Part shown: positions 47,197 to 63,846 of the stretch, one piece after another
Position numbering within the stretch: position 1 is the stretch's first letter
How the letters are laid out: every line of letters starts with the position of its first letter
DNA from: Cadophora sp. MPI-SDFR-AT-0126
Taxonomy: Eukaryota; Ascomycota; Leotiomycetes; Helotiales; Ploettnerulaceae
DNA length: 64,000 nt
Assembly: GCA_020747065.1 (NCBI GenBank)
Contig: JAGMVK010000014.1
Coordinates: 1,364,001 to 1,428,000 of the forward strand
Reading direction: 5' to 3'
The notes under the pieces: generated by a model
The model's database searches: none
Seen by the model: the letters and a program-made list of their open reading frames with translations, nothing else
What the model was told of the DNA's origin: nothing
Program-made: the position numbers and the translations under genes

Positions 47197-48885
47197 TTAA
47201 TCTGTAGAATGACCATTGCTCTCCCAGAAATCTTTTATGTCTTTGTCCATTCCCACAGCTTCATCCATATTGACGTGAATCATTTCCTTCGTGATTACTC
47301 GATCGGGTTCGAGGGGATTCCTCTGACGTAGTGATCTCGATGCTTCTTGACTCCTCAGCCATGACAAAGGTTTCCTGAACCTATCAACCTGAGAGTAGCG
47401 CTGACCATCCCAGTATCTAGCCCTGCCATTGACAACGTGATTGATTCTGGCCAACACAGTCCAATGGAAAGATTGTTCTTCGAGCGGAGGCCGTACTGCT
47501 GCTTCCATTTCATCATGAGCCTCTCCTATATTCACTGGCATGTGCGGATTTCGGATAGCCTGACGGATGTTGAAGATTGACGGCAAGAAATGATAGGCAA
47601 ACCAACTCCGGTCGGCCCAATCTCGAGGCCCGAAGGACGTCCAACGGGGGTTGGCGTGTTGATGTTGCAATAAAGGTGTCAGTGTCTGTTCAGTGATGTA
47701 TTTCCAATCGAGGTCAAGCAATTTGTAATGTTCAATCTTGCTGACCATCCAGACATAGGGATAGTCGCCGATAAATCCGGATTTGTTTCCTCCAAGGTCG
47801 CCATGTACTCCAGGGAACCAAGTCTGTGAGAACACTTGGCCACGTTGTATATTATCTGATAGAAGAGGTAGAACGGCTGGGTAGAAATCAAAGCGGCATT
47901 CATCGAGCGCAAGAGCTTGAAAGGTGTGCTCGACCTGAGGCCCGATCTGGATATCGAATGGGCCATGTCTTAAAGCTGAACGCTCTACCACTTGTTGATT
48001 GTCGGTCGCTGGTACTCGAAAGGGCGGAGGCCCAAGTGATCCAACTGTATCCCAAATCCCCAGACATTTGATGTTTACGTCGAGATACGTTGGTTGATCT
48101 ATGCTCCTGCCCGCAATGTCCACATCTTTGCCCTGCCGTTTTTGACTGTAGTAGTTGGTTCCGAACTTATTGAGTTCTTCCGTCCGTTCTTTCTCCAAAG
48201 ATATGATTGCTTCTTTGACTACTTCGAGGCTTGAAGTAACCGATCGCTCAGCCTTTGGAAGCTTGACATAGGCGTCCCACAGTATATCAAAAACATCCAT
48301 ATTCTCTTTTTTGAGAATGCCAGCCCACTTGATGAAGCCTATGAGTGCCCTCACTGTGAAGGCTCCTCTGGAGTACCCAAAGAGAAGAATCTCATCTCCG
48401 AACGAATAATTGTCCACGATGAAGCGGTAGGCATATCTGACCTTGTACGACATGGTGTTGCCGGTAACAGCCTCTTCGACCCGGCTTTGGGGCGTTCCCA
48501 ATGCGCCAATTCCACCGAGATAGTACACAACCTGTGGCCTATGGACTGTGGCTCCACCATTCTGTTCTGTGGAGTACGGTAGTATGGCAGTGGCAAGACG
48601 TGAAACATTCGATTGAAACCCCGCTATTGGAGTCTTTGGTCCCCGAAACCAATGCTCGATACGCTTCCATGCTGAAAACAATCCAAGCAACCAAAGAATA
48701 TGATAGACAATTGGTGGTAGAAACCATCGTAGAAACCGGGAGACAGAACTGCCAGGCTTTGTTCTTTCGGGTGTGTCTCCGAAGTCATCATAAGTGCCAT
48801 CGCAGCAGATGATGATTCGTTTGCTTTGAATGTCTGCCATTCTCTGATCCGGATTTGACTTGCCGGGTTCCTCAGGAAGTGACAT
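47197..48885 (-). CDS. DUF2235 (Tle1-like phospholipase) family protein
   Basis: Intron-free, 562 residues. It begins with the family signature RIIICCDGTYDDFGD (about 22-37). The nucleophile elbow FGYSRGAFTVRALIGF lies near 168, CLGIWDTVGSLGPP near 278 supplies the acid, and FPGVHGDLGGNKSG near 358 supplies the histidine. This gives a complete putative alpha/beta-hydrolase Ser-Asp-His triad. DUF2235 proteins are abundant in filamentous ascomycetes and are related to bacterial type VI Tle1 phospholipases. The fungal substrates and roles are largely unknown. There is no signal peptide. The ATG at 48885 was chosen; a second Met at residue 16 is an alternative. Confidence 0.88.
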   Translation of the reverse strand: MSLPEEPGKSNPDQRMADIQSKRIIICCDGTYDDFGDTPERTKPGSSVSRFLRWFLPPIVYHILWLLGLFSAWKRIEHWFRGPKTPIAGFQSNVSRLATAILPYSTEQNGGATVHRPQVVYYLGGIGALGTPQSRVEEAVTGNTMSYKVRYAYRFIVDNYSFGDEILLFGYSRGAFTVRALIGFIKWAGILKKENMDVFDILWDAYVKLPKAERSVTSSLEVVKEAIISLEKERTEELNKFGTNYYSQKRQGKDVDIAGRSIDQPTYLDVNIKCLGIWDTVGSLGPPPFRVPATDNQQVVERSALRHGPFDIQIGPQVEHTFQALALDECRFDFYPAVLPLLSDNIQRGQVFSQTWFPGVHGDLGGNKSGFIGDYPYVWMVSKIEHYKLLDLDWKYITEQTLTPLLQHQHANPRWTSFGPRDWADRSWFAYHFLPSIFNIRQAIRNPHMPVNIGEAHDEMEAAVRPPLEEQSFHWTVLARINHVVNGRARYWDGQRYSQVDRFRKPLSWLRSQEASRSLRQRNPLEPDRVITKEMIHVNMDEAVGMDKDIKDFWESNGHSTD

Positions 48886-50153
48886 CTTGAGGTGCAGCTT
48901 TTTATAATCAATCGCACTCGACGCACTTGACGACGGGGGCCGGTGACCCGAGATACTGCTCGATGCTTGAGAAGGTTCAGAAGGTAAAGATTAAAAAGGG
49001 CGGCAAAAAAAGAAAGTATTGTGACGCACAAGCCACCGAATCCTTCCAAAGCTGGCTATTGGACTGTCACACACTTGGTCCTGCAGTGAAGCTGGCTGGC
49101 TCGATCTGCGCTGCCCCGGAGCCAATTGCTCCAGAAAGAGCAATAGCATCGTGCAACTGATCATTTTCAGCTTCGCTATGGCTGAGATATTGGGACTGGG
49201 GATTTCCCGCCAATTTTGGATGGACTGGGACATTGATTTAATATCTCGTAGGCTCTCTGCATAGCCGTCTCTGATGCCCATAATCACAGGGCTTGAGGCC
49301 ATGAGGAGTGTGTCCGCCTGACGGGATGCCTGCTTGACTTGGTGTGAGGGTCTGAACATCGGTCAACTTGGGAATATGCCATTGAAGACGAATCCCATAG
49401 CAACGACCCCAATATCTCGTCATATGAAGAGTTCGTTCGGGTTTTAAGAAGACGAATAAAACCAATGGCAAAGGTTGACAACACATTGTGATCTTCGAAA
49501 TGCTCCTGCTTGTATTCGCTCGAAGCACTGAGCTTGCTGTAGCGTGATCCTGGACCGTGAAGCATTTTTTTTTATCTTCGAGCCAACTCCTCGAAGCGAA
49601 ATTCAAGCGATATAAAGACGTGAAGGAACCATCCAATTTGCAAGTATGACAGATATAGGAAGAAAGCAGCCCTCCTTGGTGTGTATGCAGTTATTGAAGG
49701 CAGTGACAAGACATCTTAAAGTTTGCGTTCGTGCGCAGAGTGTTGGAGAACACCTTGTCCTGGGAATAGTTAGTACTCACTCTCTACTGCCGAGCCGTAT
49801 CGTGTATCATGAACCAGAAGATGATACGGCTGAGAAGGAAATGTTCAATGATGATGCTTGAGAGGATGAAGAGGAAGATTGCTCTGGCTGAGTCAGCGAA
49901 TAGGGCGGCCTTGTCTCCAGCCTCGCCTCATGGCAATGCTCTCAACTTGATCAGGCCACTTCCTTTTTCCAACCTCACCCCATTGACAACCACTTCCACA
50001 CCATCAGTCATGCAGACAATGACTTCCCCGCAACTCAAAATGATCCCATTGATCCGAAGACACGGCTTGATGCCGGCGATAAGTACTGCCACTTTCGCAC
50101 AGCAGATCTCGCAATCACGAAGATACAAGACATAAATCTAGCACTTCTCTGCC
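48886..50153. other. Divergent intergenic region, no gene seen
   Basis: About 1.27 kb between the divergent DUF2235 and alcohol dehydrogenase genes. Short frames only, with no recognisable element. Confidence 0.5.
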
Positions 50154-51403
50154 ATGCAGACCCTCAGAACTATACGGATTTTATCACACGGAAACATTCT
50201 TCGATCATCGATTCGACAAGCTTCCTATTCCACCATGAAGGCACTCGTGTACAAGGCAATTGGAGAAGTGAAGATGGAGGAACGCCACAAACCAAGGATC
50301 TCACAACCAACAGATGCCATTGTCAAGCTCACAAAGACGACAATCTGTGGCACTGATCTGCATATCAGTAAAGGGGATGTTGCTACTTGTGGTCCCGGTA
50401 CGATCTTAGGTCATGAAGGTGTTGGGATAATCGAGGAAACCGGAGCATCGGTCAAAGGGTTCAAGAAGGGAGAGCATGTCTTGATATCCTGTATCTGTTC
50501 CTGCGCAACCTGCGAATACTGTCGGAAGGGAATGTACTCGCATTGCACTACTGGGGGTGTGTTATGGAGCCTTTTTGCAAAGCTTCAGCTGACGAATTCA
50601 GGTTGGATTTTAGGGAATACAATCGATGGCACCCAAGCTGAATATGTTCGAATCCCCCATGCTGATTCCTCCTTATATCCAATACCAGCCGGAGCGAACG
50701 AAGCGGCTTTGGTTATGCTGAGCGACATATTCCCAACTGGCCTCGAATGTGGAGTTCTGAATGGGAAAGTACAGCCTGGAAGTACGGTGGTAATCGTTGG
50801 TGCTGGCCCTGTTGGATTAGCTACCATGATTACTGCGCAACTGTACTCGCCGTCTATCATAATTATGGTTGATATGGACAGCAACCGCTTGAAAGTTGCG
50901 AAGTCATTGGGTGCACATCATACGATTGATCCTAGTGATGGGAAAGCAGTTGAAGCCGTCAAGGCATTGACAAGTGGGAAAGGATGCGATACTGTGATTG
51001 AGGCTGTTGGTATTCCTCAGAGTTTCGAGCTCTGCCAACAGATCATTGCACCTGGAGGAGTGCTTGCGAATGTTGGGGTTCATGGGACGAAGGTCGATTT
51101 GCATTTGGAGAACCTCTGGGCACAAAACATTGGTATGTTTCGTCTACTCCTCCGGGTTTTACTAACGTCAACAGCGATTACCACACGACTCGTCGATACC
51201 GTAACGACTCCAATGCTTTTGAAGTTGGCACTGTCAGGAAAGCTGGATCCCTCGAAACTAATCACACACAGTGAGTTCAGAAGCATGGTTTTCGAAAACC
51301 ACTAACACACGCAGAATTCGCCTTTGGTGACATGGAAGCTGCCTACAGTACTTTTGGAGCTGCGTCTAAACATGAGGCTCTGAAGGTCCTCATTGAATTT
51401 TGA
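50154..51403 (+). CDS. Zinc-dependent alcohol dehydrogenase (MDR family)
   Basis: Four exons: 50154-50556, 50602-51132, 51175-51270 and 51315-51403; 372 residues. Zinc and cofactor motifs are complete: catalytic-zinc Cys in TTICGTDLH (about 64), GHEGVG (about 86), the structural-zinc cysteines CATCEYCRKGMYSHC (about 115-130) and the NAD(P) loop VGAGPVGLA (about 200). It resembles threonine/butanediol/formaldehyde-dehydrogenase-like MDR enzymes. The N-terminal 27 residues are Arg/Ser-rich without acids and could target mitochondria; MKALVYK at residue 28 is an alternative start. The 45-nt first intron keeps frame if retained. The gene lies about 2.9 kb from the mycosporine ligase gene. A role in reducing an aldehyde from the A-T-R enzyme is possible but unproven. 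Confidence 0.88.
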
Positions 51404-54264: not shown

Positions 54265-55767
54265 TCAGCAGTCAAAGACCTTCGTTGTGCTGACATTACA
54301 TCGACTCCACTTCCTCCCTGTTAAAATCCGCGACACGAAAATGCAAGGCCAGTAAACACAATACAGGGCCCAGAATGGCCAAGGATCCCAAACCTCACAA
54401 GTGCCGTCTCGCCAATACATGAGATGCTGAAAGAATTCCATCCAATTATGCCTCAAATCCGAGAAGTCCGTCCTCAGCGCCACAAACGTTGCTAGAGGAA
54501 GTAGAAAGCGAGTGACAAGATCATGTCCAACCCAGTAGTAACCTGTGTTAGAAGTCGTCAAAACAGTGCGAGTGCCGAGTTTCGAATCATTTTTGCTTTT
54601 ATTGAAAATTTCCATATATGCTTTTGCCATTTGAACGCTCTGTCCGGCGAAGAGTACAACGGCTGTGTGAGCCCGAGGATTGCACTCTATCGGATAGATT
54701 TTCTTCATCAGGTCTTTCTCACTGCTTTTCTGGTCGAGGAGAAAGTCGATGGAGAAATGGCCAGTCATGTCGGTTCCCATATTGTCGGCATATATTTGAG
54801 TGTATTTGAGCAGAGAACTGAAGATATCAGAGGATGTTCGGAGGGCTTTGTAGTGCATCAGCAGTTCTGATGACGGACAGCATGTGAATGCAGCGACCTT
54901 CCCTCGTATAATGATCGAATGAGTGCAGTACTCGGGACCGCTAATGAATTGCTGGAGGACAAAAGGCCTGGTGGGAGAGGGCCGCAATGTAGCGAGATGT
55001 GCTCGGGTCTTCTCCATTTGCAAGAATGGAAGAAGTGTCATGTCAGCTCGAACAGAATCATCTAAGCCGACGCTTTTCATGATGAAACTCTTCTCCACGG
55101 TTACATCTCTAGGGTGAAGTAGCTGTGTCCCTTCATCTATGGAAGTTATCGAATGCGTTTCGGGGATGTTCAATCCTAGTCGTTCCGTATTCTTGATGAA
55201 AGAATGTTTCTCGTGGAGGAGACCTGTCATATCGACTCCAAATTGTACAACTCGACAGCTCGTCGCACTCTGTACTGCATCAGCAGCCTCTCCATCTTCC
55301 GATGCTGAAGCAACTCCAGAACAGCTGATCCACAGATCCACATTTTCCTTCTTGATAATGCAAACGAGACTGCTGATATACGCCGCGGGGCCAAAGGTGC
55401 TCGAAGGTTTCGACAGCCTGTAGAAAGTCTTCAAAGCTCTGGAGAACCGGCCACAAACAGGGATGTAGAATGGCTCGAAATCAGCGCCAATGACAGTATA
55501 TCCTGCTTGATGAAAAGCTCGCGCGATGAAGAGCCCTTTACTCATGCCCACTCCGGTTACCAGAATGGTGCGCGGTCGACCGTGAGCGGACTGGCTTCTC
55601 CATTGTCGTTGTTGCTGAACCTGCTTTACGAAGCGAGTATGTGGTGATATAATTGAGCTCAAGATTGCAATGACTGTGCAAAGAGGGCTTAATAGGAGGG
55701 CAAGAGAGATCAAGGCGACATTTTGGAGGATGTGCAGCCAGAGTGGGGATTTGGCAGTTAGAGGCAT
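54265..55767 (-). CDS. ATP-grasp ligase, mycosporine-forming (MysC-like)
   Basis: Single exon, 500 residues from the ATG at 55767 (MPLTAKSPLW); the frame is open slightly further up but has no ATG there. An N-terminal hydrophobic segment (about 8-40) is followed by a basic stretch. The pre-ATP-grasp Rossmann-like domain has RTILVTGVGMSKGL and ADFEPFYIPVCGRFS. The ATP-grasp core has FIMKSVGLDDSVRADM, FVLQQFISGPEYCTH and the Mg2+-binding pair FSIDFLL plus YPIECNPRAHT. Two further hydrophobic stretches lie near the C-terminus. In cyanobacteria, ATP-grasp MysC joins glycine to 4-deoxygadusol. Here the cluster context supports the same chemistry with an unknown amino acid. Other fungal ATP-grasp enzymes of this family serve different pathways, so family membership alone would not prove it. 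Confidence 0.82.
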   Translation of the reverse strand: MPLTAKSPLWLHILQNVALISLALLLSPLCTVIAILSSIISPHTRFVKQVQQQRQWRSQSAHGRPRTILVTGVGMSKGLFIARAFHQAGYTVIGADFEPFYIPVCGRFSRALKTFYRLSKPSSTFGPAAYISSLVCIIKKENVDLWISCSGVASASEDGEAADAVQSATSCRVVQFGVDMTGLLHEKHSFIKNTERLGLNIPETHSITSIDEGTQLLHPRDVTVEKSFIMKSVGLDDSVRADMTLLPFLQMEKTRAHLATLRPSPTRPFVLQQFISGPEYCTHSIIIRGKVAAFTCCPSSELLMHYKALRTSSDIFSSLLKYTQIYADNMGTDMTGHFSIDFLLDQKSSEKDLMKKIYPIECNPRAHTAVVLFAGQSVQMAKAYMEIFNKSKNDSKLGTRTVLTTSNTGYYWVGHDLVTRFLLPLATFVALRTDFSDLRHNWMEFFQHLMYWRDGTCEVWDPWPFWALYCVYWPCIFVSRILTGRKWSRCNVSTTKVFDC

Positions 55768-56327: not shown

Positions 56328-57265
56328 TCACGGATCTTCCTCCCCGACGCAGATTGTAACCTCAATTGCATCCTGAATTTCTATTAGTCTGGGCTTGAAA
56401 TTCATGGTATATAGACTCACAGCTACACCAGACGGCTCCCAGCTTTGAACCAGCTTGCTCTCATATATGAGATTCGGGTTTCCATTGAACTCTGTGCTTA
56501 GTATCTCGACATCTCCATATTGTTTGGCCGACCTTCCTGGGAAATCCTTCGTATCTTGCTCGACAGCTTGAGTCAATGCCATTCTTTTGTCATGGACACT
56601 GCTGCGAACGTACTTCAGGTATGGAGGATTGCCTGGCTTGATAACATTGTCGGCAGCAAGCGTTGTACCTTTGCCAATGAGTCCCAGAGACTCACACAAC
56701 TTCAGATCTGTGGTATAAGCTGGCTTGTAATGATCGAGAAACATCATGTCGATCTTGTCAAGTTTCCCTGACCCGTGTAATGACTTGATGCTTTCGTTGC
56801 TTGGACCGACAACAACATCAATAACCCCACTGAGCCCAGCCAGATCTACCAGTACTTCGATATTGTGAGCAAATTTGGGGCTTCGCTCCAAGCAAAAGTA
56901 CTTCTTGCCTCCCACTCCGCGCATCGCATCCGCGAAGAGGATCGTTGAGTAGCCGCAATATCCTCCAAGCTCTACCATCACATTTGGTTTTTTGCTTTGA
57001 ATGATCTCGGTCACGATCTTTCCTTTGTCCTCACCAACGTTCATCAAATATCGCTTGGTGCGTGCAAATTCGTCAATTGCCTCCAGGACTTTCGCTGGAG
57101 AGTTCTGGACATCAGGTCTCGCTCTCACGAAGTCAACCAATTCCTCTTCCCTTCCATCATCGAACTGGACCAAGTTAGCTATTATTATTCTTTGATTTTG
57201 AACCCACTTACGAAAACCTCCTCCTGAGGAGCATATGCTTTTCGATCGTCAAATGCTGATGGCAT
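56328..57265 (-). CDS. COMT-type SAM O-methyltransferase of the mycosporine cluster
   Basis: Three exons: 57265-57212, 57164-56421 and 56372-56328; 280 residues, all phase 0. The last exon has only 14 codons plus stop. The enzyme shows the catechol O-methyltransferase pattern: YLMNVGEDKGKIV, SAM-binding VMVELGGYCGYSTILFA, metal-binding DMMFLDHYK, AADNVIKPGNP and a C-terminal GVADAIEVTICV strand completed by the small exon. In mycosporine synthesis an O-methyltransferase converts 2-demethyl-4-deoxygadusol to 4-deoxygadusol. The divergent placement beside the synthase gene supports that role. Cyanobacterial MysB looks closer to caffeoyl-CoA-type OMTs, so this COMT-like enzyme may have been recruited separately. 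No targeting signal is seen, so it is probably cytosolic. Confidence 0.85.
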
Positions 57266-58444: not shown

Positions 58445-60064
58445 ATGTCAGATTTCAAAGCTACCGTTTCGGAGACCAAGTCAGCTTCCGGCCACACTGG
58501 GTTCCACGTCACCGGATACGAGAAGATCGAATATGGCTTCACATTTATCGATGGAATTTTCGATCCATCAAACACCAATCTAGCTGATTGCTACAAGAAA
58601 TGGGGGCGATGCCTAGCTGTCACAGATCAGAACATTTACAATGTGTATGGCAAGCAGATGGAGGCGTACTTTCGACACCATGGTCTTGATTTGAAGATCC
58701 ACAAGACGAAGATTGGCGAGAAGGTCAAGACGATGCCGACGCTTTTGAGCATCGTTGATTCTATGAACGAGTTTGGAATCTACCGAAAAGTGAGTAGTTT
58801 CCTGGCTAGTCCCATTTTGCTTTGACTTCTCTGACATTTGCTCCAGGAGCCAGTGCTTGTTGTTGGTGGCGGTCTCGTCACAGATGTTGCAGGGCAAGTC
58901 AAACAAGTCGAGAAGATATTCGTTTGGAAAGGGGGAACGAATCGGCTAACGTGTTTATCCTTTAGATTCGCTTGTGCTGCCTACAAAAGAAACACAAACT
59001 TTATTCGCATTCCCACCACCGTCATTGGCCTGATCGACGCCTCGGTTTCAATCAAAGTTGCTGTCAACTACGGCAACTACAAGAATCGACTGGGTGCCTA
59101 CCATGCTCCCATGCACACTTTCCTCGACTTCACGTTCCTCCGCACTCTTTCAACAGCACAAATCAGAAACGGCTTCGCAGAGCTGATCAAAATCTCTACC
59201 TGCTCTCACTTGGACACATTCAATCTTCTTGACAAATATTGCGGGCAGCTCATTGAGCAATCTTTTGGCCGGGCAAATGGCTCCCCTCAAGAATTGATTG
59301 ATGCTGCAGACAAGATCAATCGTGAGGGCATCCATGAGATGCTGAGGCTCGAGACACCGAACCTTCATGAGATTGGTCTTGACAGAGTCATTGCATATGG
59401 GCACACTTGGTCTCCGCTGCATGAACTTGTCCCGGAGACTCCTCTCCGCCACGGCCATGCTATCAGCATCGACATGGCATATTCAGCTACTCTGGCAAAC
59501 AACCGAAAGCTGATTTCTGATGAAGAGCATCGTCGTTTGCTCAACCTCTTTTCCCGGGCAGGGCTCTCCATGGATCACCATCAATTCGACGAAGACGTGC
59601 TTGCCAAGGCCACCACTGCGATTCTCAAGACTCGTGATGGACTTCTTCGTGCTGCTGTTCCAAACCCAATCGGTAGCTGCACATTCCTCAATGATGTATC
59701 TGCCGAAGAGATGAATGCAGCACTTCGCAGACACAAGGAGCTCATGAAAGGGTACCCAAGAAATGGAGAGGGTATCGAGGCATATGTCGATGCTTCTGAT
59801 ACTGGCTATACGGAGAATCCACAAGCCGAAGAAGAGAGAATGGTTGAAGCCGCGGCCAAGAAGGCGGGCAGCTTGAATGGGACCAACGGGAAAATTCACA
59901 ATGGCACTGGGACTGATGTTGTCAAAAACACCAATGGCATGAATGATCATCACACAAACAAGAACAAGTCGCACACCAGCAATGGTGTGCTGAAGGGGCC
60001 AATTGCCGAGAAGGAGGTCAACGGCAATGGCCATGCACACGTTGTGGAGCCCGCAAAAGCATGA
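58445..60064 (+). CDS. 2-demethyl-4-deoxygadusol synthase (sedoheptulose 7-phosphate cyclase)
   Basis: Three exons: 58445-58789, 58847-58893 and 58966-60064; 496 residues. The second intron is GC-AG. The protein belongs to the dehydroquinate-synthase-like sugar phosphate cyclases. NAD-binding GGGLVTDVAGFACAAY and IRIPTTVIGLIDASVSIKV are followed by NYKNRLGAYHAPMHTFLDF, NGFAELIKI, RVIAYGHTWSP and RHGHAISIDMAYSA, which hold the metal-binding Glu and His residues. DASVSIKVAVN, GHTWSP and LLRAAVPNPIGSC agree with desmethyl-4-deoxygadusol synthases as I know them. EEVS enzymes read differently (DAGVGIK-like), as does AROM dehydroquinate synthase. The enzyme converts sedoheptulose 7-phosphate to 2-demethyl-4-deoxygadusol, the first mycosporine step. 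The last 85-90 residues are a low-complexity Asn/Gly/Lys/Thr tail lacking in bacterial enzymes. Confidence 0.93.
58894..58965 (+). other. GC-AG intron in the DDG synthase gene
   Basis: The donor is GCAGG|GCAAGT, the standard GC-type donor, and the acceptor is TTTAG. A GCTAAC branch site lies about 20 nt before the acceptor. Splicing joins DVAG to FACAAY, restoring a conserved cofactor-binding segment. The intron is 72 nt with no stop in frame, so retention would insert 24 residues. Confidence 0.85.
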
Positions 60065-60409: not shown

Positions 60410-63400
60410 TTAATCACTTTCGGTCAGCCAATGCCAGATCTTGCCTACTAGCATCACATCCACGGGACGAACACCCCGCATCCATTCACTGGCCTTTGCA
60501 GCGTTCGAAGCATCAAATGCAATATCCTGTCTGATGTTGGAGGATTCGTCGGTTTGCCCCCGTGCTTCATCTTCAAAGCCGTCCCTCCATAATCCAAGCA
60601 GACTCCGCGCAGGATGGTCGACCTTTTCAAGCTTATCAAGCCACTCCTTAGGCTCAACGACAGAAAAGTCGTTGGGTGTCAGCTTCTTGATCCAGCCTAG
60701 CAAGTCCATCCATGAGGTAGACTGATCGTTGTTGACAATGTGATACACTGGGCATGTGTTGTCCGACCGTGCAGAAGTTCCCAACAAAGATATATCGACC
60801 ACTGCACTTGCAGCAAAATCGACCGGAAGCCAGCTTAGATTCTCTTCCAATCTTGGAAGGCAGCCGAGTTGTTTGGTTGTGGAAAGTATCAGAGGCCAGG
60901 CTTCGGATCGATTCCAGACTCCGTTTTGTATGTCGCCTGTAAGTTGGCCAATCCGAAGTACACTTATTTTCGAAGTCATTTGAGGATGATGTGAAGTCTT
61001 CGAGCAAATGATCTCTGCAATCCATTTGCTTTTGGAATATCCCAATGCGTTGTCTGGTGGAGGCGTCGGATAGATCTGCTCCCGGATGGGCATATCATCC
61101 TTTAACAGGGCTTGGCCAATTACACTAGCCGTGCTGGAGCAAAAAGCGAAATGCTGAAAATGTCGACACGAGGCAGCAAGATTTACGAGGTTCTGTAGGC
61201 CTGTAATGTGCTCTTGGACGAAGGATTGGAGGGGTAACGTGAAGTTCACAGCCCATGCTGCCTAGAGGAGTTTAGTGGATGTAGACACTGGAGTGGCAGG
61301 GGATCTGACATGAATTATATGTGTGGTTGCCTCTTTCAATTTGTCGATGATTTCCGTCGACAATCCCAGTTTTGGCTCTCCAAATTTCACCGGGATACAG
61401 CATATCTTGTCATTGGAGCCTCCGGGCTGTAGCGGGGGTATTTTGCGTTTGATCAAGCTTTCCGACACTCGGATGCGAGCCTCCGTGCGGTCTGCAGCGC
61501 GAACAAGGCATGTGATTCGACTGACCTGGGAGCAATCTTGAAGTTCATTCAGGATATGAGCTCCAAGTGCACCAGTTGCTCCTGTCAATATCTACAGAAG
61601 TCACTTGGTCAGCACCCATTGAGATACGGAAATTGAAACATGGCACTCACAACATTGAGATCATCGCGTCCGGGCGTTTCGTACTGAGGAGCTTCAGAAA
61701 AATCGAAATTCGAGTACGTCTCAGCAAGCTGAAATAAATCGTTACCCTGATCTCGGTGCTCGGGAGTAGCACCGCCCTTTCGTGAAGTGAAGTATCGAAT
61801 GAGTCTGCAGGGGTCAGCTAACTCAGAGAAATTCTTTTATCTGGAAAGCTCACAGTCTTGTATTTCCACAATCGTACACAATATTCCATGGAAGATCGCT
61901 GTAGCCAAGTTTCTGGGTTTGTAAGTTGAGAGAACTTTGGAAGGACCAGAGATATGTACCTCTTGTAATCTGGAGCGGATCTGTGTGGCCTTTGTTGAGT
62001 CCACGCCACAGTGAAAGAAGTCTGCATCATCCGCAATGGTGCCCTCCCCGACAACATTCGCCAATATGCTTGTGATAATACGTGCGACACTCTCATTTGG
62101 CAATGAATGGTGATAGTATTCTGCTGCCTTACTAGGCTCGTACATATCTCGAATCCTCGACCCATACCTTTTCTCGGCCTCACCCCGCAGTAAAGTCCCC
62201 TTACTACTTCGCTCAAGCGGGGGGTATGGTCTGCAAATTATCTCAAACATGTCCTGGGATATTCTTGCGTGAGGCTGTTGCTTCGAGTTCATGTCTTGCA
62301 GAGCTTTCCAGATCTCGTCTCTCAGAGCATCTGTTGGGTTGTCGCGAGGACTGAATATAATAGCTCCTGGTATTTTCTGACCGTTGCCAAAAATAAAGAT
62401 GTCTTCGATGAAAGCTGAGCTAGTTTTGATTTCATCCTCTATAGGCGCAGGATCAAACTTTTTCCCTGTGAGAAGTGTGATTTGGCTATCGCTTCGGCTG
62501 TGATATTTCCAAGCATTCTGGATCTTCGGGTGTGGTTCGAATAAATCAGAGGTGGCATAGCTTCCATCATGTCTGTTTCTCTTGGCCATGTGTGGCCAGT
62601 TTGAAAGGACGATTAGTTCTGATAGCTCGGACTCTCCTCGCTCGAAAAGGAGATGACCGGAATCTGGCACTCGAAGGTATTGCCAGCCCTTGTCGAACGA
62701 GTACTCTCGGTGAGACGATAAAAGAAACCCACACTCCGCACTGCCATAGCGAGAGACGAGGTTAATATTTTCAGTCACCAACTGGTCGCCTACTGTTTCA
62801 GGAAGAGCCGCACCGCCGACTCCTACTATCTCCATGCTTTGTAATGCTCGGAGACCATCACGAGTCTCAGAAAGCATCTGTAGAACGTATGGGACACTGG
62901 AGAAGTATCGTACTGGAGGTGTACCAGCTTTTAAGACTGCCACTGCGGCGGCTGACAAACAAGACAAGATTGAAGCTGAAGTTATGGGGGCATCAGCACC
63001 GGGGAAAAGCCAAATGAGGGCATGACTGGTCCATGCTCTGAAGCAATCAGCTATGCCACCATGATAGAGTGGTGTAGTGGTGAACGTGGCAGTATCTTGT
63101 CCCTGTAAAGATGGCAAAACAGCAACAGCTCTGTGATGGGTCTGCGGAATAGGCTTCGGGATGCCGCTTGAAGTTCCAGAAGAGTGATGAATGTATGCGA
63201 CGTCGTCTGACGAAACTCTGCGCCAGTCCCTGGAGTGCGTAATTTTGTTGGTTTGCAGTAAGCTCGATATTCCAGCCTTCTCCCAGGGAATTGAAAGTGC
63301 CTGTAGATGCGACTGCGGTTCAGCTGTAGCTGCAGATGCCAGGCTAGAGTGGGCTTCATCATGATACAGACGAGATATCTTGCATGACTTGCAAAGAGCA

Positions 63401-63846
63401 TTGATCGCAGAAGGACTGCATTGAGGTCTGCTGGAATGAGAATATGTTTTTAAGGAGTGAAATTAACTTACGCTATTAGGAGTATAGAGTAGCCAGCTCG
63501 TATGAATCCCAACCAAGCAAAAAGAAAGTCGACCGAGCTGGCGCAGAGAAGACCCACGCAGCCTCGCTCTCCATCAGGAGAGAGACAGACAGCACTTTTC
63601 AGCGAGCCTTCAAACAGCTGACGGAAAGCTGGATAGATTAGAGCAATGTTACATGGAATCTTGAGATGAATACTGACTGAAGATTTGATATTTGCAACCA
63701 TTGAGTATTGGAAAGGCAATAGCTGGTGAATCTGGATGACGACTGCCTTGAATTTCAAGCAATGTGTTGATCGTATCAAAATCGGATCGCCGGCAAAATT
63801 TACTTGCCTCTCCCAAAGTACACGTAAAGTAATTAAGTGCCGGCAT
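60410..63846 (-). CDS. NRPS-like adenylation-thiolation-reductase (A-T-R) enzyme
   Basis: Seven exons: 63846-63678, 63628-63472, 63427-61960, 61912-61854, 61804-61651, 61591-61310 and 61261-60410; 1046 residues, all phases consistent. Residues about 10-530 form an adenylation domain, with A3 motif HSSGTSSGIPKPIPQTH (about 188), YHGGIAD, A5 YGSAECG (about 332) and GKKFDPAPIED. A carrier domain follows with DFFHCGVDSTKA, the phosphopantetheine serine being near 582. A C-terminal extended-SDR thioester reductase starts at ILTGATGALGAHIL (about 670), with CSSTAS and catalytic YSKSK (about 838-842). No condensation or thioesterase domain is present. Such enzymes activate one acid, load it on the carrier and release it reductively as aldehyde or alcohol. 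The cluster context suggests making the reduced amino-acid side chain of a fungal mycosporine. Carrier activation needs a phosphopantetheinyl transferase such as that at 28519-29706. Confidence 0.9.

Follow-up and report, generated by a model that had tools for sequence, protein, structure and literature searches.

The stretch of DNA analysed here, called the window in what follows, comprises 64,000 nucleotides of the genome of the fungus Cadophora sp. MPI-SDFR-AT-0126, a member of the Helotiales in the Leotiomycetes (contig JAGMVK010000014.1, positions 1,364,001 to 1,428,000). Near its end, at 60410-63846 on the minus strand, lies a gene for a protein with adenylation, carrier and thioester reductase domains (A-T-R), beside genes for 2-desmethyl-4-deoxygadusol synthase (DDGS), an O-methyltransferase and an ATP-grasp ligase. 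A sequence-only reading had placed an A-T-R enzyme next to mycosporine genes, and the neighbours bear this out. The most likely single explanation, with a probability of about 0.45, is that the enzyme makes the amino-alcohol side chain of mycosporines, which are natural sunscreens, by reducing a mycosporine-amino acid after its ligation. Such a side chain is typical of many fungal mycosporines, and the gene for the reduction is unnamed in the parts of the literature examined. With such a gene near the mycosporine genes of many Leotiomycetes, a single gene and a single assay make the question testable, and the enzyme could become a tool for producing amino-alcohol sunscreens.

The A-T-R gene and its protein

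In the spliced model the gene runs from an ATG at 63846 to a stop codon ending at 60410, and removal of six introns restores a single frame across seven exons, giving a protein of 1046 amino acids. The end of the second intron was set at 63428, and with it the protein length, because orthologues read LLIAPQC at this point. The protein matches BKA64DRAFT_679228 from the same strain (partial, 1045 aa) with 100% identity and 100% query cover. The nucleotide coordinates of the domains were derived by hand from the exon table.

60410..63846, minus strand: A-T-R gene, 7 exons (spliced model, orthologues and the 100% match to BKA64DRAFT_679228)
63677-63629, 63471-63428, 61959-61913, 61853-61805, 61650-61592 and 61309-61262, minus strand: introns of the A-T-R gene (spliced model; second acceptor from orthologues)
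62134..63756, minus strand: adenylation domain, residues 31-540, with His231, Arg335 before YGSAE, and Lys518 in KGT (Pfam PF00501 and PF23562; conserved columns; paralogues)
61792..62076, minus strand: carrier (PP-binding) domain, residues 560-622, with GVDS and Ser586 for the phosphopantetheine arm (Pfam PF00550)
60410..61588, minus strand: thioester reductase domain, residues ca. 671 to the end, with the NADP-binding TGATGALG at 672-679, Tyr838 and Lys842 (Pfam PF07993; folds 8aep and 4u7w)

The Pfam matches were all above their cut-offs (AMP-binding 31-346, AMP-binding_C_3 422-540, PP-binding 560-622, NAD_binding_4 671-916), and the scan found neither a condensation nor a thioesterase domain, so that the architecture described in the sequence-only reading, without a condensation domain, holds for the spliced protein. 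The coding stretch of the carrier domain is interrupted by the introns 61959-61913 and 61853-61805. The NCBIfam thioester reductase model spans residues 668-1022 with an E value of 3e-54, its score of 184.5 lying below the curated 213.35. A database search returned 653 homologues at E<=0.001, far beyond chance. In 45 aligned orthologues Lys518, Tyr838 and Lys842 were invariant and Ser586 was conserved in at least 90%; we take these to be the A10 lysine, the reductase Tyr/Lys pair and the carrier serine, respectively. Both in domain order and in its intact catalytic residues the protein thus agrees with the fungal A-T-R carboxylate reductases, a class that resembles nonribosomal peptide synthetases (NRPS-like). 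The predicted structure (mean pLDDT, the per-residue confidence, 85.6; pTM, the overall fold score, 0.53) matches adenylating enzymes over residues ca. 21-535 and thioester reductase domains over 633-1045. The nearest reductase folds were 8aep (the Neurospora carboxylic acid reductase) and 4u7w (myxalamid), and since these two tie, the comparison does not decide between an aldehyde and an alcohol as the endpoint.

Linkage with mycosporine genes across fungi

Our comparisons among homologues rest on the best 120 of the 653, of which the 62 named rows entered the tree; not used were 58 rows, for the most part metagenome proteins without a name. Contig sharing could be compared in 30 of the 62, for which a DDGS or ligase of the same assembly was also listed; among the other 32 is Diplocarpon rosae, whose rows come from several assemblies. 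The A-T-R gene shares a contig with DDGS or the ligase in 16 of the 18 comparable assemblies of Leotiomycetes and Venturia, i.e., the window, Cadophora DSE1049, C. gregata, Oculimacula, Rhexocercosporidium, Stipitochalara, Lachnellula occidentalis (on a 17-kb contig), three Venturia, Coleophoma, Hyphodiscus, Hyaloscypha variabilis, Claussenomyces, Podosphaera (36 kb) and Phialocephala (167 kb). The two that have them on different contigs are Lachnellula suecica and Diplocarpon coronariae. By chance, and assuming a 50-Mb genome, sharing would be expected in ca. 0.4 of the 17 assemblies beyond the window. In the window the A-T-R and DDGS genes lie side by side, and the partners are no more than three locus tags apart in C. 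gregata (10804/10807), Oculimacula (6783/6786) and Claussenomyces (2763/2762). A second ATP-grasp paralogue served as a small control; in all four genomes considered (our own genome, Cadophora DSE1049, Oculimacula and Diplocarpon rosae) it did not share a contig with the cluster copy or the reductase.

Among lichens and Dothideomycetes other than Venturia the genes share a contig in 5 of 12 assemblies and lie on different contigs in 7, against a chance expectation of ca. 0.14 if a 30-Mb genome is assumed. Adjacency was shown in none of the 12. Four of the five that share a contig (Xylographa bjoerkii, Lecanora helva, Oleoguttula and Dothideomycetes sp. NU459) carry the A-T-R gene and DDGS 23-118 tags apart (gaps of 23, 54, 76 and 118); for Pycnora the gap was not established. 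This spread beyond chance possibly reflects an old cluster coming apart. The A-T-R gene is probably a real and conserved, if optional, member of the ascomycete mycosporine pathway, and because many related fungi keep it near mycosporine genes it may supply the missing step to the alcohol side chain.

The gene is not found with every cluster. One clade of the ligase tree (14 rows, support 96/90) holds Sclerotiniaceae, Glarea, Halenospora, Cudoniella and a Mollisiaceae strain, with Phlyctema joining at 88/89. Counting Phlyctema, these are 10 species, all of them absent from the best 120 of the 653 reductase homologues. Five further rows of this clade are second ligase copies from genera that also have a cluster-type copy. 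Outside it there are 19 species, 13 with a listed reductase, one (Rhynchosporium agropyri) represented through a sister species, and five without a reductase among the same best 120, namely Hymenoscyphus, Chaenotheca and the lichens Umbilicaria, Icmadophila and Squamulea. In Hymenoscyphus, DDGS and the ligase are two tags apart and the reductase is not among the matches listed. These counts treat kin species as separate, and absence from the best 120 is not absence from the genome.

For bacteria we compared 80 of the 307 DDGS loci found. At E<=1e-5 a reductase-domain match occurred in none of the 80 and an adenylation-domain match in 13. An open reading frame (ORF) like the ATP-grasp ligase of the window lay near DDGS in 70. 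The O-methyltransferase of the window was matched in four loci at E<=1e-5; with the threshold relaxed to E<=10 there were 74, and the 12 best matches lay close to DDGS.

Evolutionary history in Venturia

The 62 A-T-R proteins form one group, separate from the outgroup of paralogues from our own genome (support 100 in the Shimodaira-Hasegawa-like approximate likelihood ratio test). Venturia is by taxonomy a genus of Dothideomycetes, and forcing its reductases to group with those of other Dothideomycetes cost 161 log units in a quick tree and was rejected by the approximately unbiased test (p-AU 7.6e-50). The DDGS of Venturia sits within Leotiomycetes (16 rows, 99/92); a Dothideomycete placement was borderline (p-AU 0.0547), and a grouping of the remaining Leotiomycetes without it was weakly supported (76/69.9). 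Its ligase groups with Lachnellula (94/90), in a tree that contains no other Dothideomycete. The Venturia rows concerned are P0015, P0017, P0020, P0179, P0181, P0270 and P0279. The Venturia genes look Leotiomycete-like, clearly for the reductase, less firmly for DDGS and without a fair test for the ligase, a pattern that suggests transfer of the whole cluster. The simplest reading of the trees would be a joint move of the genes, or their retention as a set.

The substrate pocket

His231 and Arg335 are invariant in the same 45 orthologues. His231 lies within PLYHGG, where amino-acid adenylation domains of NRPS type have the Asp (Asp235) that holds the alpha-amine; by its motif we take His231 to be position 235 of PheA. 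The NCBIfam amino-acid adenylation model gave 59.7 with a cut-off of 317.4. Arg335 stands directly before YGSAE, where the two nearest paralogues in our own genome carry His and, in the alignments, 4-coumarate and dihydroxybenzoate ligases carry Gly, Val or Ala. The pocket points to an acid that lacks a free alpha-ammonium group, and a mycosporine-amino acid would fit because its nitrogen is bound to the ring. The sequence-only reading had offered two routes, reduction before ligation or after it; by inference, the pocket residues favour carboxylate reduction after ligation over synthesis of a free amino alcohol.

Four known enzyme classes were considered for the protein and set aside. As an L-aminoadipate reductase (Lys2) it scores 101.2 with NCBIfam TIGR03443, the cut-off being 1030.1, and as a bacterial carboxylic acid reductase 77.4 with a cut-off of 1300. 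Glycine betaine reductase, with the A-T-R-R architecture named in passages of PMC8403587, needs two reductase domains, and the protein has one NAD_binding_4 stretch. An NRPS of the cyanobacterial MysE type does not fit either, the Pfam scan having found a reductase instead of a thioesterase.

Neighbouring genes

Three genes next to the A-T-R gene complete the picture of the locus.

58445..60064, plus strand: DDGS, 496 aa, 3 exons (Pfam scan, PDB 5tpr match)
58790-58846 and 58894-58965, plus strand: introns of the DDGS gene (spliced model)
56328..57265, minus strand: O-methyltransferase, 280 aa, 3 exons, introns 57211-57165 and 56420-56373 (Pfam PF13578 and PF01596)
54265..55767, minus strand: ATP-grasp ligase (MysC-like), 500 aa, single open exon, hydrophobic N-terminus (homologue names; bacterial DDGS loci)

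The best PDB match of the DDGS was 5tpr (E 7e-146), followed by 4p53 (E 3.5e-69), which we take to be a cyanobacterial DDGS and an EEVS-type cyclase, respectively. Its second intron (58894-58965) is of the GC-AG type, and the protein ends in a tail of ca. 64 residues rich in Asn and Gly (59870-60064), of which the fungal consensus has a varied form. A stretch of 23 residues resembles the DDGS stretch named in parts of PMC10057719. The ATP-grasp ligase had no Pfam match and was identified from its homologues, some of them named ATP-grasp; as read from the sequence it is hydrophobic at both ends, as if anchored in a membrane. With DDGS, O-methyltransferase and ATP-grasp genes together, the neighbours of the A-T-R gene are by their sequences a fungal mycosporine cluster, with the same three genes as in Phaffia.

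Zinc-type alcohol dehydrogenase genes flank the cluster on both sides (window 50142-51305, plus strand; locus L021:4497-5588, minus strand) and are putative candidates for the reduction of an aldehyde product. A protein with the catalytic domain of a Tle1-like phospholipase of type VI secretion systems (PF09994) is encoded at 47200-48885 (minus strand), here in a fungal genome. Elsewhere in the same genome a broken ATP-grasp copy stands beside an O-methyltransferase fragment (contig C15:1052261-1054129, locus L025:5262-7127), ca. 20 kb from the contig end; the pair has the look of another mycosporine cluster that has decayed. Another intact ATP-grasp ligase, the second of the genome and 53% identical (contig C34:1791293-1792858, locus L024), belongs to the ligase clade that includes Sclerotiniaceae, and no other mycosporine gene was found around it within the 20 kb fetched.

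Proposed reaction and alternatives

Our proposal starts from what was computed, i.e., the domain order, the intact catalytic motifs, the conserved linkage and a Venturia history unlike that of the host lineage. The A-T-R gene would be the fourth member of the mycosporine cluster. DDGS and the O-methyltransferase would produce 4-deoxygadusol, to which the ATP-grasp enzyme would attach an amino acid (Gln, Glu or Ser), as in known pathways. The adenylation domain would then activate the free carboxylate of the mycosporine-amino acid, which would pass as a thioester to the carrier domain, and the reductase domain, with NADPH, would release it, either at the aldehyde stage or at once in the alcohol form. 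The end product would be a mycosporine amino alcohol, e.g., mycosporine-glutaminol or -glutamicol. The inferred parts of this scheme are the substrate, the order in which the step follows ligation, and an alcohol as the final product. Acid and alcohol forms are both listed in parts of PMC4665425 (mycosporine-glutamine and -glutaminol, -glutamic acid and -glutamicol, -serine and -serinol).

Several observations weigh against this proposal. His at the place of residue 231 also occurs in three paralogues of our own genome, so that the pocket residues are no proof of the substrate, and adenylation folds are too similar for the fold comparison to separate substrate classes. In passages of PMC10057719 the three Phaffia genes gave mycosporine-glutaminol in S. 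cerevisiae without an A-T-R gene, as judged by retention and co-migration in high-performance liquid chromatography; if this is right, the yeast supplies glutaminol or the reduction. Botrytis cinerea is reported in parts of PMC4665425 to make mycosporine-glutamicol and appears in the DDGS and ligase lists, but it is not among the best 120 of the 653 reductase homologues. It is therefore probable that amino-alcohol mycosporines can also be made without the A-T-R enzyme. The sequence-only reading had suggested that the enzyme may explain the amino-alcohol side chains; linkage and history near mycosporine genes agree with that, while as a general explanation it is not supported, given Phaffia and Botrytis.

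It is also conceivable that the enzyme reduces free Gln, Glu or Ser and that the ligase then joins the amino alcohol to 4-deoxygadusol. The same cluster linkage would be explained, the Phaffia authors state in passages of PMC10057719 that the ligase incorporates glutaminol itself, and another clade of fungal A-T-R enzymes reduces free amino acids (parts of PMC9605436); with His231 in place of the alpha-amine-binding Asp and the amino-acid adenylation score far under its cut-off, we consider this improbable. An enzyme of the pathway acting on some other acid, e.g., aryl or aliphatic, with an aldehyde that decorates the mycosporine or serves a linked compound, appears unlikely rather than improbable. 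The closest solved adenylation domains by sequence are those of 4-coumarate, dihydroxybenzoate and anthranilate ligases, all weak (best E 0.00096), the fold neighbours of the predicted model include MenE, NpsA and 4-chlorobenzoate ligase, and mycosporine clusters without an A-T-R gene are reported or listed; yet these folds are too alike to fix a substrate, and the eight nearby ORFs covered by the scan, which started beyond the first 39 kb of the window, included no polyketide synthase and no other gene for making an acid. That the gene has a function of its own and its linkage in Leotiomycetes is incidental would agree with the separate contigs in 7 of the 12 lichen and non-Venturia Dothideomycete assemblies and with adjacency in none, but the sharing in 16 of 18 Leotiomycete and Venturia assemblies, the unusual Venturia history and the 5 of 12 elsewhere, with ca. 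0.14 expected, make it quite improbable.

Returning to reduction after ligation, we tentatively propose, at somewhat less than even odds, a dedicated ascomycete carboxylate reductase that converts the finished mycosporine-amino acid into its amino alcohol. Its gene would belong to a four-gene cluster of Leotiomycetes that was passed to Venturia, and would survive away from its partners in lichens and black fungi, while Phaffia and the relatives of Botrytis would have found a solution of their own. On this reading no earlier enzyme would be known for the reduced side chains of mycosporines in ascomycetes.

Comparison with known systems

The open-access literature searched, most subscription journals lying outside it, assigned no function in mycosporine synthesis to any A-T-R enzyme in the passages available, and those of PMC5103461, PMC3083659, PMC4227064, PMC11195213 and PMC11433233 held nothing bearing on such an enzyme. 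To call the system undescribed, as the sequence-only reading did, is nevertheless too strong. An NRPS-like gene tied to a mycosporine-type cluster, without an assigned reaction, is already known from parts of a 2021 survey of Hypoxylaceae, in which NRPS-like genes form mycosporine-like (myc) clusters with homologues in most Hypoxylaceae genomes and an unidentified product (PMC8403587). By this description the myc clusters are like ours in joining the two in ascomycetes, and differ in that neither a reaction nor a gene map or product is stated for them in the passages.

Cyanobacterial shinorine clusters (MysA-MysB-MysC with the NRPS MysE or with MysD) share the core of DDGS, O-methyltransferase and ATP-grasp ligase, and some have an adenylation-domain gene. 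MysE ends in a thioesterase, and the bacterial DDGS loci differ from the window in having no reductase-domain match in the 80 compared. The second amino acid is added by MysE, according to passages of PMC10057719. The Phaffia rhodozyma cluster, in the same passages, is like the window in having DDGS on the strand opposite to the O-methyltransferase and ATP-grasp genes and the three enzymes in the same order, DDGS, O-methyltransferase, ATP-grasp; it differs in that no A-T-R gene is described there, yet mycosporine-glutaminol is reported. Lys2 has the A-T-R order, but the protein of the window is far under the TIGR03443 cut-off. In architecture the protein is like the fungal A-T-R carboxylate reductases, 84 of which are sorted into seven clades in PMC9605436, a paper from which the word mycosporine is absent. 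In the parts of it available these enzymes have the same domain order and a single reductase domain, and the characterised members take orsellinic-type acids, amino acids, L-aminoadipate, hexenoic acid and other acids.
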